From Sphingobacteriales bacterium (GTDB lineage Bacteria > Bacteroidota > Bacteroidia > Chitinophagales > CAIOSU01): a DNA stretch of 64,000 nt. The DNA lies in the NCBI GenBank assembly GCA_027483645.1, contig JAIXUD010000022.1, positions 124,001 through 188,000 on the forward strand. The letters are read 5' to 3'. Made by a program: the position numbers and the translations under genes. The notes beneath the pieces are model-generated. The model searched no databases, was not told the origin of the DNA, and saw nothing but the letters and a program-made list of their open reading frames with translations. Shown piece after piece: positions 371 to 29,324 of this stretch; position 1 is the stretch's first letter; every line of letters begins with the position of its first letter.

Positions 371-400
371 AAAAAAAACCGTCACCCCAAAGGGTGACGG
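371..400 (-). terminator. Intrinsic terminator of the structured RNA
   Basis: A perfect 9-bp stem (CCGTCACCC/GGGTGACGG, loop TTTG on the minus strand) is followed directly by eight T residues. It is a textbook rho-independent terminator for minus-strand transcription arriving from the right. Confidence 0.85.
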
Positions 401-646
401 CCGCACACTAACTACTACCTATATTTTGAGTTCCTGAAAGTCCACAAATAAGTTCCTTTCAGGGAACGATTGATCAAGTTGATGGTTGCGGGAAAAGGGC
501 GTAACCCACAACCATCGTTTATAAAGATGCTTCATTACGAGACGCTGAAGCTGGTATGCTTTTTACCAGTAAATCGTCATAGTTATATCGTTCGCTGCTT
601 AGTCTTCCTTCTCTATAACTGGTGCAACCTGTTCGTTGCGTCTCTG
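371..646 (-). ncRNA. Unrecognised structured RNA with its own sigma-54 promoter and terminator
   Basis: On the minus strand the predicted transcript starts near 646 and ends in a U8 tract at 378-371. Helices that can be read directly (plus-strand coordinates): GAGACGC 644-638 with GCGTCTC 545-539, closing a multi-branched domain right at the 5' end; AGTTATA 620-614 with TATAACT 587-581; CTGGTA 569-564 with TACCAG 556-551 around a 7-nt loop; a 12-bp helix 516-505 with 492-481 including one G-U pair; a 10-bp helix with a single bulged C, 466-456 with 440-431; and a 9-bp terminator stem, 400-392 with 387-379. The outer stem begins one or two bases after the start predicted from the promoter, which independently supports the promoter. 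It does not match tmRNA, RNase P, SRP or 6S RNA as I know them. A 38-codon ORF (535-419) lies inside, but it overlaps two helices and has no clear ribosome-binding site. It could instead be a long regulatory leader for the downstream lipoprotein gene, though the terminator argues for a free RNA. Confidence 0.7.
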
Positions 647-657
647 GTTTACATAAG

Positions 658-673
658 GCAGTAATTGTGCCAA
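658..673 (-). promoter_or_regulatory. Sigma-54 (-24/-12) promoter of the structured RNA
   Basis: The minus strand reads TTGGCACAATTACTGC, with GG at 671-670 and GC at 659-658 separated by exactly 10 nt, as RpoN promoters require. The TTGGCAC half is perfect; the -12 half (CTGC) has one mismatch to TTGC. The predicted start is about 646. Confidence 0.7.
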
Positions 674-754: not shown

Positions 755-778
755 ATTTCTACAAATTGGTGTAGAAAT
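755..778. promoter_or_regulatory. Palindromic operator, candidate enhancer-binding-protein site
   Basis: ATTTCTACA (755-763) and TGTAGAAAT (770-778) are perfect 9-bp arms around a 6-bp spacer. The site lies 109-132 bp upstream of the predicted sigma-54 start at 646, the usual range for activators of this sigma factor. The 12-mer at 755-766 recurs exactly, as its reverse complement, at 19196-19207 upstream of another sigma-54 promoter. It also lies 107-130 bp before the gene at 885, so it could instead regulate that gene. Confidence 0.55.
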
Positions 779-18115: not shown

Positions 18116-18826
18116 TTACTTTACCAGCGTGTAGCCAAAGCCCAGCCTCAACATCACTGGCTTTATATCTATATCCTCATATAAGCTTCCGCTATATTGT
18201 ACGCCCAAAGTGCCGTGGAAACCGCTCGGGTTGCCGAAACTCACAGCGGCTTCAAGGCCTGGCACAAACTCACGCGCAACTGGGCTGCCCTTCTCGCCAA
18301 AGCGATACTTCTCTTTTTCTTTGGTATCGCCTACTTCGGTTAGTATGCGTATTTTGGTAATACCCGCAAAGCTAAACACTGGCCCAGCGCGGAACCATAC
18401 CTTGGGGTGAGCGTAGATTTGCAAAAAGAGCGGAAACTCAAAATAATCAACCGTATAATAGCTCCTTCTACGGAAATCGAAATCCTCGTTTTTCTCAAAT
18501 ACCCAATATCCTTTCGGGCTATAAACCATGCCGGTACCCAAACCTACCAATTCATGAAAACGGTAATCGACCAATATGCCTACATAAGCACTGGTTTTGG
18601 GCAACAAAGAACCTGAGAAATCAGCATCAGCAGCTTCGCGGTCGCTTATGGAGTTGCGTATTTGCTTGGCATCGGGGCCGACCACCGGGCTGGATATAAG
18701 CCCAGCCATAAACTCGAAGTTCAATGATTTTATTTGGTTGGTTCGTTTGAAGCGGCCCTCGGTCTGGCCAACGGCGGAGGCAACCACTAGTAAAAGCAAT
18801 GCATGCGATAGTATAATTTGACGCAT
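18116..18826 (-). CDS. PorT-like outer-membrane beta-barrel protein
   Basis: A 236-residue protein with a signal peptide (MRQIILSHALLLLVVASAVG-Q) and a single outer-membrane barrel typical of the PorT/OMP_b-brl family: regularly spaced amphipathic strands (YVGILVDYRFHELVGLGTGMVYS, shown as GLGTGMVYSPKGYWV), and a C-terminal strand PVMLRLGFGYTLVK. PorT itself belongs to type IX secretion, but this large family is diverse and the precise role is open. The start at 18826 places the signal peptide properly; an upstream in-frame ATG would add ten residues. Confidence 0.7.
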   Translation of the reverse strand: MRQIILSHALLLLVVASAVGQTEGRFKRTNQIKSLNFEFMAGLISSPVVGPDAKQIRNSISDREAADADFSGSLLPKTSAYVGILVDYRFHELVGLGTGMVYSPKGYWVFEKNEDFDFRRRSYYTVDYFEFPLFLQIYAHPKVWFRAGPVFSFAGITKIRILTEVGDTKEKEKYRFGEKGSPVAREFVPGLEAAVSFGNPSGFHGTLGVQYSGSLYEDIDIKPVMLRLGFGYTLVK

Positions 18827-18852: not shown

Positions 18853-18886
18853 TCACCCTGCAAGGTTATACAACCATGCAGGGTGA
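18853..18886 (-). terminator. Terminator after the 41-residue gene
   Basis: A perfect 10-bp stem TCACCCTGCA/TGCAGGGTGA with a 14-nt loop, followed on the minus strand by TTTATATTT. It separates the small gene from the PorT-like gene. Confidence 0.6.
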
Positions 18887-18913
18887 AAAGGGTTTTAATT
18901 TGAAGCAGTTAAA

Positions 18914-19039
18914 TTACTTCTTGGCACCGCCGGTTTTGCTGTCGGTTTTGCCACCAGTTGATTTGGTGATGCTTGATTGGCCTGAAGACTTCTTTGTAGT
19001 GTCTTTGCCTTTGTCTGCTAATTTTTTGTCAGTACTCAT
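18914..19039 (-). CDS. 41-residue Lys/Ser/Thr/Gly-rich small protein under a sigma-54 promoter
   Basis: ATG at 19039-19037, stop TAA at 18916-18914. The protein begins MSTDKKLADKGKDTTKK and continues with Ser/Thr/Gly/Lys only (GGKTDSKTGGAKK at the end). It is highly basic, has no hydrophobic segment and is probably disordered. It could bind nucleic acid or be a stress-related small protein, but I recognise no family. Support for a real gene: a well-matched sigma-54 promoter giving a 34-nt leader, an upstream activator-like site, and a terminator 28 nt after the stop. Confidence 0.65.
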   Translation of the reverse strand: MSTDKKLADKGKDTTKKSSGQSSITKSTGGKTDSKTGGAKK

Positions 19040-19083
19040 GATGTTTCGTTTTTAAGGTTACTTTGTCAATTATGTATTGAAAG

Positions 19084-19102
19084 AAGCAACCATTGTGCCA
19101 CT
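19084..19102 (-). promoter_or_regulatory. Sigma-54 promoter of the 41-residue gene
   Basis: The minus strand reads GTGGCACAATGGTTGCTT: TGGCAC and TTGCT are both perfect, with GG (19099-19098) and GC (19087-19086) exactly 10 nt apart. Predicted start about 19074. Confidence 0.75.
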
Positions 19103-19195
19103 AGCAGCCCATATAACAGCAACAAGCATAACCGTATAATAATCAATTGGTTAAACGAAATTAACCATTTGTAAAAATGTGTATTACGCCGTACG

Positions 19196-19207
19196 ATTTG
19201 TAGAAAT
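19196..19207. promoter_or_regulatory. Candidate activator site shared with 755-766
   Basis: ATTTGTAGAAAT, the exact reverse complement of 755-766, lies 122-133 bp upstream of the predicted start at 19074. A one-mismatch half-site TGTAAAAAT occurs at 19170-19178. Confidence 0.5.
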
Positions 19208-19422
19208 CAAGGTGCAGATGGAGAAGAACGCTCCACATCATTTGGCAACAAAGGGTTGTGCTCACTGCTGCCATCCATATCCCGTTTATTACGAAGCCAA
19301 TAATGGGCTATCACAATTTAGAAGATAGGCAGAGCAAGGACAAATAACATGATAACTGCCAGTGGGTTGATATACTCCGCAAATACATCGTAATACTCCA
19401 AAAACAGCTTGAATGCCTTCAT
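19207..19422 (-). pseudogene. Small membrane-protein ORF with an in-frame ochre codon
   Basis: From the ATG at 19422 the frame encodes MKAFKLFLEYYDVFAEYINP and a hydrophobic segment (LAVIMLFVLALPIF), then TAA at 19320-19318. The same frame continues with IVIAHYWLRNKRDMDGSSEHNP to a TGA at 19209-19207. The hydrophobic helix and its following positive charges straddle the stop, so the ancestral protein was probably 71 residues with one membrane segment. Alternatives: a genuine 34-residue membrane peptide, stop-codon readthrough, or a sequencing error. Confidence 0.45.
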
Positions 19423-27042: not shown

Positions 27043-27060
27043 TTGGCACAATTCGTGCAA
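27043..27060 (+). promoter_or_regulatory. Sigma-54 promoter upstream of prc
   Basis: TTGGCACAATTCGTGCAA has a perfect TTGGCAC and GG (27045-27046) to GC (27057-27058) spacing of 10 nt; the -12 half is GTGC. Predicted start about 27070, giving a 125-nt leader before prc. Confidence 0.6.
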
Positions 27061-27194: not shown

Positions 27195-29324
27195 ATGTTT
27201 TCAAGAATATTTCTCGTTTTAGCCCTCGCAGCGGGTGTGCTTTTCTCCGCTGCAGCCTTCCGAACGCCTGCTACTGGCGATAAGGATAAGGTACTACTCG
27301 ATATGGTGCTCAACGGCGTACAGCAGAACCACTATGCCGATATGGCCATCGATGACAAATTCAGTGAGCGGGTATATGACCTATACCTCAAGAACCTGGA
27401 TTTTGGCAAGCGCTTTTTTACCCAAGGCGATATTGATGCCTTTGCCCTTTACAAAAACAAGCTGGACGACCAGATGAAGGCCGGTAGCTATGAGTTTTTT
27501 GAACTTACTACCAGCGTATACCAAAAGCGCCAAAAGCAAATTGAAGGCTGGTATAAGGAGATATTGGCCCAGCCATTCAACTTCGAGAAAATAGAAGATT
27601 TGGAGACGGACGTTGATAAGCGAGCTTTCCCTAAAAACGAAACGGAGTTGAAAGAGCTATGGCGCAAGCAGTTGAAGTTTCAAGTGCTTACCCGCTTGAG
27701 CGACAAGCTGGATGAACAAGAAAAGGCTGAAAGCGGTGATGAAATAAAAAAGAAAACGGTTGCCGATTTTGAGAAGGATGCCCGCGAGCGTGTGCTTAAA
27801 ACCCATGCAGATTGGTACCACCGCCTGAGCCGTCAAGATTTAGACGATTACCGCAACATCTTTTTGAACTCGGTGGCAATGGCTTTTGACCCTCATACGT
27901 CGTTTCTGCCTCCAGAAGACAAGGAGAACTTCGACATATCTATGAGTGGTAAGCTTGAAGGTATCGGTGCCACGCTGCAAGAAGAGGGCAGTTATATAAA
28001 GGTAACGGCCATCGTATCGGGCAGCCCTAGCTGGAAACAAGGCGACTTGAAAGTAGGCGATATTATATTGAAAGTGGCACAAGGCAAAGGTGAACCGGTT
28101 GACATTGTGGACATGGCGGTGGGCGATGCCGTAAAACTCATCCGTGGTGATAAGGGTACCGAGGTGCGCCTTACTGTGAAGAAGGTGGATGGCGCTATAA
28201 AAGTGGTGCCCATCATTCGCGACGTGGTGATTTTGGAAGAGACCTATGCCAAATCGGCAGTGTTGCAGAAGAATGGCGAAAAGCAAAAAGTGGGCTACAT
28301 AAGCCTACCTAAGTTCTATGCCGACTTCAACAAGTCTGGCGGTGCCAATAGCGGCGATGACGTCCGCAAAGAAGTGCTAAAGCTGAAAAAGCAAGGCATT
28401 GACGGCTTGGTTATCGATTTGCGTAACAATGGCGGCGGCTCATTGCAAGATGTGGTAGATATGGCCGGCTTGTTTATCTCCAGCGGCCCAATTGTGCAGG
28501 TAAAGTCGCGCTTCGGGCAGCCTTACTTGCTAGAGGATAGGGATACCAACTTGGTATATTCTGGCCCTCTAGTGATATTGGTAAATGAGTTCAGCGCATC
28601 GGCTTCTGAGATTTTAGCAGCTGCCATGCAAGATTATAAGCGTGCCATCATCATCGGTAGCCCTGCCACTTTCGGTAAAGGCACCGTGCAGCGCTTTATT
28701 GATTTGGACGAAAACGTAAGTGCGGAGCTGGCCAGCATTAAGCCCTTGGGTGTGTTGAAGCTAACGACCCAGAAATTCTACCGAATTAATGGACAAACTA
28801 CCCAATTGAAAGGCGTGATACCAGATGTTATTTTGCCTAGCCTATACAGTTCAATGGATATCGGCGAGAAGGATGAGGATTATCCATTGTCTTGGGATGT
28901 AATATCGCCAGTACCTTACAAGGTGTGGGGCAACAACATGAGCAACTTCGATAAGGTGAGCAAAAATAGTACCGCACGAATAAGCAGCGATAAATTGTTC
29001 GGCCTAGTATTGGAGAATGCTGAGCGCTTAAACATTAGCCGCGGCAGCAGTGTATATAGCCTGCACCTAGGCCTATACCGAGATAGGGAGAAAAGGCAGC
29101 AAGAGGAAGGCAAGAAGTATGAGGCGGCGAGCGATACCCCGCAGCCGATTACGGTAACCACCCCTGATGCCGATAAGGCAGGCATTAACGCCGACGAAAG
29201 CAAAAAGGAGCGCACCACTGCTTGGTACAAAGACATCCAAAAGGATATTTACTTGCTGGAATCGTTGTGTGTGGTGAAAGATATTATTGAGTTGCCGAAG
29301 AATCCGGTTTCTCAAAAGAAATAG
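27195..29324 (+). CDS. prc: Carboxy-terminal processing (tail-specific) protease, S41A family
   Basis: A 709-residue periplasmic protease with a signal peptide (residues 1-21, ending FSAAA). N-terminal TSP-type domain; PDZ domain about 235-330 (GIGATLQEEGSYIKVTAIVSGSP appears here as LEGIGATLQEEG and SGSPSWKQGDLKVGDIILKV); catalytic core with FSASASEILAAAMQDY (Ser near residue 470) and FGKGTVQ (Lys near 495); C-terminal domain. Prc cuts periplasmic proteins from their C-termini, including envelope and secretion substrates. A good sigma-54 site sits 125-150 bp upstream, suggesting stress or envelope control. Confidence 0.93.
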   Translation: MFSRIFLVLALAAGVLFSAAAFRTPATGDKDKVLLDMVLNGVQQNHYADMAIDDKFSERVYDLYLKNLDFGKRFFTQGDIDAFALYKNKLDDQMKAGSYEFFELTTSVYQKRQKQIEGWYKEILAQPFNFEKIEDLETDVDKRAFPKNETELKELWRKQLKFQVLTRLSDKLDEQEKAESGDEIKKKTVADFEKDARERVLKTHADWYHRLSRQDLDDYRNIFLNSVAMAFDPHTSFLPPEDKENFDISMSGKLEGIGATLQEEGSYIKVTAIVSGSPSWKQGDLKVGDIILKVAQGKGEPVDIVDMAVGDAVKLIRGDKGTEVRLTVKKVDGAIKVVPIIRDVVILEETYAKSAVLQKNGEKQKVGYISLPKFYADFNKSGGANSGDDVRKEVLKLKKQGIDGLVIDLRNNGGGSLQDVVDMAGLFISSGPIVQVKSRFGQPYLLEDRDTNLVYSGPLVILVNEFSASASEILAAAMQDYKRAIIIGSPATFGKGTVQRFIDLDENVSAELASIKPLGVLKLTTQKFYRINGQTTQLKGVIPDVILPSLYSSMDIGEKDEDYPLSWDVISPVPYKVWGNNMSNFDKVSKNSTARISSDKLFGLVLENAERLNISRGSSVYSLHLGLYRDREKRQQEEGKKYEAASDTPQPITVTTPDADKAGINADESKKERTTAWYKDIQKDIYLLESLCVVKDIIELPKNPVSQKK

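Follow-up and report, generated by a model that had tools for sequence, protein, structure and literature searches.

A candidate sigma-54 unit encoding a small basic product shares a putative activator element with a predicted non-coding RNA in a Sphingobacteriales bacterium

A near-perfect sigma-54 promoter precedes a 41-codon open reading frame (ORF) in this genome, and a predicted non-coding RNA 18 kb away has a sigma-54 promoter of its own. Upstream of both promoters the same short word, TTTCTACA, is found in the same orientation and at almost the same distance. Based on sequence comparison we consider it probable that one activator, the response regulator L033, together with sigma-54 drives both the 41-codon gene and the RNA from TTTCTACA. 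Control of the RNA and the small protein by one activator, as put forward in the initial annotation, is thus supported by the presence of both units in a sister species, by a third unit found there and by the phyletic pattern of L033. The regulon is probably small and stress-related.

Results

The small-gene unit. In the window, i.e. the complete 64-kb stretch of DNA analysed here, the minus strand carries GTGGCACAATGGTTGCTT at 19101-19084 with GG-N10-GC spacing. The -24/-12 element TGGCACAATGGTTGC (19086-19100, minus strand) lies in an intergenic region and is the single exact occurrence of TGGCAC-N5-TTGC in the window, with GG and GC placed 10 nt apart in TGGCACAATGGTTGCT (19085-19100), close to TTGGCAC-N5-TTGCW. 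It is followed on the same strand by the 41-codon ORF MSTDKKLADKGKDTTKKSSGQSSITKSTGGKTDSKTGGAKK plus stop (18914-19039) and by the hairpin CACCCTGCA...TGCAGGGTG (18854-18885), a probable terminator separating the ORF from an outer-membrane beta-barrel gene (18119-18826, minus strand), into which read-through past the hairpin could occur. The promoter match, the ORF, the hairpin and the reverse-complement 12-mer discussed below were all located where the initial annotation had placed them. Upstream, on the minus strand at 19207-19422, lies what remains of a membrane-protein gene: it has become shorter here and meets an early stop, and its counterpart in the sister species is intact with 289 codons; the TTTCTACA site overlaps the end of this gene in both genomes. 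A third intergenic sigma-54-like site of the window, TTTGGCACAATTCGTGC (27044-27058, plus strand), has no TTTCTACA upstream and precedes a 709-aa ORF at 27195, by its looks a C-terminal processing protease.

The RNA unit. The promoter TGGCACAATTACTGC (658-672, minus strand) precedes a predicted non-coding RNA (371-647, minus strand, predicted ends) closing with the terminator hairpin CCGTCACCCTTTGGGGTGACGG-T8. The RNA is conserved in the sister species, its 3' end including the terminator stem being almost invariant. An Rfam search with this RNA returned only sub-threshold matches and no family over the gathering score, and its predicted pairing with the transcript of the 41-codon gene was within the range of shuffled controls.

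The shared upstream element. The 12-mer ATTTGTAGAAAT (19196-19207) reads exactly as the reverse complement of plus-strand positions 755-766. It occurs three times in the 4.27-Mb draft genome: at the RNA unit, at the 41-codon gene and upstream of an hsp20 gene which also bears the sigma-54-like site TTGGTATTGCAATTGCT. We do not retain the 12-mer as a regulatory word, because its orientation relative to the promoter is opposite at the RNA unit and the 41-codon gene and because the other genus members do not share its hsp20 copy. TTTCTACA, by contrast, agrees between the two loci in orientation as well as position, its 3' end lying 97 bp before the TGG at the RNA unit and 98 bp before it at the 41-codon ORF. 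The earlier proposal of a shared word at the same distance therefore fails for the 12-mer, given its opposite orientations at the two loci, and holds for TTTCTACA.

At the RNA unit an inverted repeat of 24 nt, ATTTCTACA-CCAATT-TGTAGAAAT (755-778, minus strand), has TTTCTACA (770-777) as its left arm. At the 41-codon gene the right arm is missing and TTTCTACA is present alone as a putative activator half-site (19199-19206, minus strand) inside the 12-mer, recurring at -90 in the homologous unit of the sister species. A degenerate second copy, ATTTTTACAAAT (19167-19178, minus strand), may be a weak second activator site and is not conserved as such in the sister species. A strict inverted repeat was rejected as the sole definition of the element, since most of its matches in the genome have no nearby sigma-54 site and one arm is absent at the 41-codon gene. 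The spacing between the arms varies (4, 5, 6 and 8 nt), which is unusual for the footprint of one dimer and counts against our preferred reading. We describe the shared element as a putative half-site or repeat arm, TTTCTACA, with or without TGTAGAAA.

Both units are kept in a sister species. Chitinophagales MAG M30B48 (G002), a sister species of the same genus, retains the RNA unit as well as the small-ORF unit. Its RNA promoter TTGGCACAATTAGTGCC has TTTCCACA-N5-TGTAGA exactly 97 bp upstream, and the repeat at the same place reads ATTTCCACA-TAAAA-TGTAGAT. At the second locus a syntenic 45-codon lysine-rich ORF, MDTDKKSKQQDKNKEATPKQLKKDKAPDNKTGLTGKLQGGRESLK, is flanked by neighbours of the same kinds: on its upstream side a membrane ORF and the end of an apparent di-heme enzyme gene, on its downstream side the beta-barrel gene. 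Here TTTCTACACCGCCCCCTGTAG (TTTCTACA-N8-TGTAGT) lies at -90 of a promoter, TTGGTATGGCGCTTGTA, which has a weakened -12 element (TTGT) and thus GT in place of the GC hallmark, a point against our preferred reading. The ORF is again followed by the hairpin, with identical arms and a different loop.

Scanning seven genomes for TCTACAN{3,9}TGTAGA yielded a single further repeat that has a sigma-54 element at this spacing, TTTCTACAGGTGTGTAGA located 96 bp before TGGAACAGTTATTGC on contig C78 of the sister species. This third unit (G002:C78:26136; L192, 1499-1617), which was not used in defining either the motif or the spacing, precedes an EF-hand-like lipoprotein gene. An upstream site within about 80-150 bp is thus found at -97 and -98 in the genome under study and at -97 (TTTCCACA), -90 and -96 in its sister. 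Among the other relatives, G003-G005 lack the RNA at the syntenic place and gave no detectable beta-barrel homologue, and the beta-barrel homologue of G006 has no small ORF upstream.

The 41-codon product. The predicted protein has a pI of 10.1, a GRAVY of -1.45, 27% lysine and 15% (14.6%) glycine, while its 45-aa counterpart has 8.9% glycine and a GRAVY of -1.9. Neither gave a Pfam or NCBIfam profile match at E values up to 1. A protein search with the 41-aa ORF against seven family genomes recovered only the query itself, the homologue being found through synteny alone. Identity between the two ORFs is low at the protein level and their likeness is mainly compositional. The start codon, the reading frame, an MxTDKK start and the lysine-rich composition are nevertheless kept in both species despite indels. 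The initial annotation spoke of a basic protein: the basic character is borne out by a pI of about 10, and the reading as a protein is argued for by the start and frame retained in one relative. If translated, the 41-residue product is probably disordered and rich in lysine and glycine. A further small protein may be encoded at L065 (1001-1150; G000:C13:253584), where a sigma-54-like site, TGGCACAGTACTTGC, is found before a 33-codon basic ORF, MIRGLLKLAAAAGIARYAYLKYKEKATTKTSES.

One may ask whether the 41-codon ORF is left untranslated and the transcript acts as RNA, be it as one more small RNA or by serving the beta-barrel gene (18119-18826) as its leader. The poor amino-acid identity with the ORF of the sister species would fit such a role, as would the control of a clear non-coding RNA by the same motif, and the conserved hairpin that follows the ORF and precedes the beta-barrel gene could be an attenuator. 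Yet start codon, frame, MxTDKK and lysine content have outlasted the indels, and the beta-barrel homologue of G006 does without such a leader. We regard an RNA or leader function as unlikely and prefer a translated small gene.

Chaperone genes and other sigma-54-like sites. A 2025 survey (PMC12316311) reports that sigma-54 promoters of Bacteroidota are enriched before groES, groEL, hsp20, grpE, dnaK and hsp90 genes. On this basis the sigma-54-like sites which we observe before htpG (L030), groES (L047) and hsp20 (L041/L146-L150) are to be expected. All five genus members keep the hsp20 promoter, TTGGTATTnnAATTGCT. The activator motif of the chaperone sites looks different, with repeated GCCATTTTGTC-like words seen by eye at hsp20. 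TTTCTACA does occur at -30 of hsp20 and at -65 of L118; both positions are off-spacing and count against our preferred reading, and the hsp20 copy is present in the genome under study only and absent from the other genus members. A TTTCTACA regulon extending to hsp20, groES and htpG was rejected, as groES and htpG lack the motif and hsp20 has it at another spacing and in this genome only. Since these sites lack TTTCTACA at a -97-type spacing, another activator presumably serves hsp20, groES and htpG. At L118 (1428-1516; G000:C10:601594) TTTATTTCTACAGAGTTAAGTAGG precedes TGGCATTCCATTTGCT by 65 bp and a long ORF is missing over almost 400 bp; the regulon may have another RNA or small-ORF unit at this site.

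Sigma-54 and the candidate activator. The initial annotation had called for a genome-wide look for rpoN and enhancer-binding proteins, and both are found. A single rpoN gene, the lack of which would have spoken against the initial annotation, is present in the 4.27-Mb draft genome (PF04552 at G000:C5:59403, 183.8 bits, E = 4.7e-54), together with four full sigma-54 activators, L032, L033, L034 and L035; weaker PF00158 matches were taken as other AAA+ proteins. L033 (G000:C8:26730) combines a REC domain (PF00072), the AAA+ domain (PF00158) with visible GAFTGA, and a Fis-type HTH (PF02954). An orthologue of 87% identity is found in the sister species only and was not found in G001 or G003-G006. 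L032-type activators are present in every genus member and in G001, and L034-type activators in G001, G002, G003, G004 and G006 with none detected in G005; an orthologue of L035 was found in none of the other family genomes searched, the sister species included. Because presence and absence are read from seven draft genomes, some of these absences may reflect assembly gaps.

Distant relatives of L033 with 49-54% identity occur in Crocinitomicaceae, Brumimicrobium and other Bacteroidota. They have in common with L033 the recognition-helix stretch DRKTLYNK, which is absent from L032, L034 and L035. TTTCTACA or TGTAGAAA lies within 150 bp upstream of the REC-activator operon at 4 of 9 loci, compared to 1 of 147 other upstream regions within the same stretches; as two of the four motif-bearing operons belong to one genus, they amount to about three independent lineages. 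At L221 the TTTCTACA-type element is the palindrome TGTAGAAAATATTCTACA. The recurrence of the motif at L033-type operons together with the common recognition helix points to an L033-type activator which would bind the TTTCTACA word and regulate its own operon. Near the activator genes of the genome under study, only a partial and weak ATTCTACA is seen, upstream of L033 and also in the sister species. In both species the neighbourhood of L033 includes an lmo0937-family membrane protein among stress-type genes, and we take further neighbours to be lipocalin-like, YihY-like and, in the sister species, Dps-like.

The sigma-54 unit may also be real and depend on L032, L034 or L035, with TTTCTACA belonging to one of these or to an accessory DNA-binding protein. 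The genome encodes four true activators, the chaperone sites without the motif at -97-type spacing are presumably served by another one, and the variable arm spacing is in line with such an arrangement, as is the lack of an L035 orthologue in the family genomes searched, G002 among them. However, relatives without the RNA and small-ORF units keep orthologues of L032 and L034, the sister species has the units but yielded no L035, and in other orders L033-type operons again have the motif upstream. Taken together this makes a different activator improbable, and L033 remains the favoured candidate.

Chance expectation. The genome contains 136 sigma-54-like matches, 25 intergenic and 111 intragenic. 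TTTCTACA is present 25-130 bp upstream of 4 of the 25 intergenic matches and of none of the 111 intragenic ones (Fisher p = 0.0009), supportive rather than decisive since two of the four sites prompted the test. The random scatter relative to sigma-54 sites that would have spoken against the initial annotation is thus not seen for TTTCTACA. The combined pattern TTTCTACA-N70..100-TGGNAY-N6-TGC has exactly two matches in this genome, the RNA locus and the 41-codon locus. A second-order Markov model predicts about 0.3 matches per genome (a rough value from 2 matches in 60 Mb; 0.7 in a smaller first run). Across 17 genomes it was found twice here, once in G002 and once in G035, with no match of the reversed control. 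We took the G035 match, which lies in a coding region, as chance. As the pattern was drawn from these very sites, its count is only suggestive, and it is the conservation of both loci in the sister species that makes chance unlikely. A chance reading, in which one sequence happens to resemble a promoter, an AT-rich word happens to be common to both loci and neither has a regulatory role, might be allowed by the expected 0.3 matches per genome and the many sigma-54-like matches inside genes (111 of 136). It is very improbable given the conservation of both loci and their spacing in the sister species, the third unit from the repeat scan and the absence of control matches.

Discussion

The arrangement suggests the following model. 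RNA polymerase containing RpoN would bind TGGCACAATGGTTGC at 19086-19100, and an NtrC-type response regulator in its phosphorylated form, L033 being the likeliest, would bind TTTCTACA about 100 bp upstream. The bound activator would contact the promoter by looping and hydrolyse ATP, leading to promoter opening; the RNA (371-647) would be driven by the same activator from the same spacing. The expected transcription start lies some 12 nt beyond the -12 element, giving a leader of about 34 nt, and transcripts from which the 41-residue protein could be made would mostly end at the hairpin (18854-18885). The product might then act as a hydrophilin-like or polyanion-binding protectant under cell-envelope or general stress sensed via L033.

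Hydrophilins are defined by a glycine content above 6% and by being very hydrophilic. Both the 41-aa and the 45-aa proteins fall within this compositional definition (glycine above 6%, strongly hydrophilic). Compared with hydrophilins and LEA-like proteins (PMC4190154), the likeness lies in glycine content, GRAVY and a disordered-type composition; in contrast, the 41-aa candidate is very short, strongly basic and without a sequence family. That it is a hydrophilin-like protectant is a guess, and more broadly its composition could suit a protectant as well as a protein that binds to nucleic acids or to the phosphates of membranes. A still bolder view would have a compact, lineage-specific sigma-54 stress module whose single two-component activator induces the RNA together with the tiny, disordered basic protein, the two acting jointly and the protein binding or chaperoning this RNA; it is highly speculative and we give it little credence.

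To our knowledge, little has been mapped of sigma-54 regulons beyond the Proteobacteria, and for Bacteroidota the list of known activator binding motifs is short. Here motif, spacing, RNA, small protein and a candidate activator are linked from sequence into a testable circuit, and the shared control region can serve as a guide to small genes and RNAs missed by annotation. Our literature search, at the level of titles and abstracts and within a limited set of papers and terms, revealed no apparent paper on the RNA, the small protein or the motif.

NtrC-family activators acting with sigma-54 are known to control small RNAs in the LuxO-Qrr system of Vibrio and in GlrR-GlmY. With the sigma-54 control of Bacteroidota chaperones (PMC12316311) the candidate circuit shares the phylum and the sigma factor, and groES, htpG and hsp20 sites are found here too; unlike the RNA and small-gene units, however, the chaperone promoters of this genome lack TTTCTACA at the -97 spacing, and the survey passages considered here describe no small-protein or RNA units of the present kind. 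A parallel is also seen with LuxO, described as an NtrC homologue in PMC11407668, and with GlrR. As in LuxO-Qrr and GlrR-GlmY, a single response-regulator activator would act from sites about 100 bp upstream of the -24/-12 element on a small RNA target, while the candidate circuit differs in belonging to another phylum, in using a different motif and in having a regulon that would also include a tiny basic protein.
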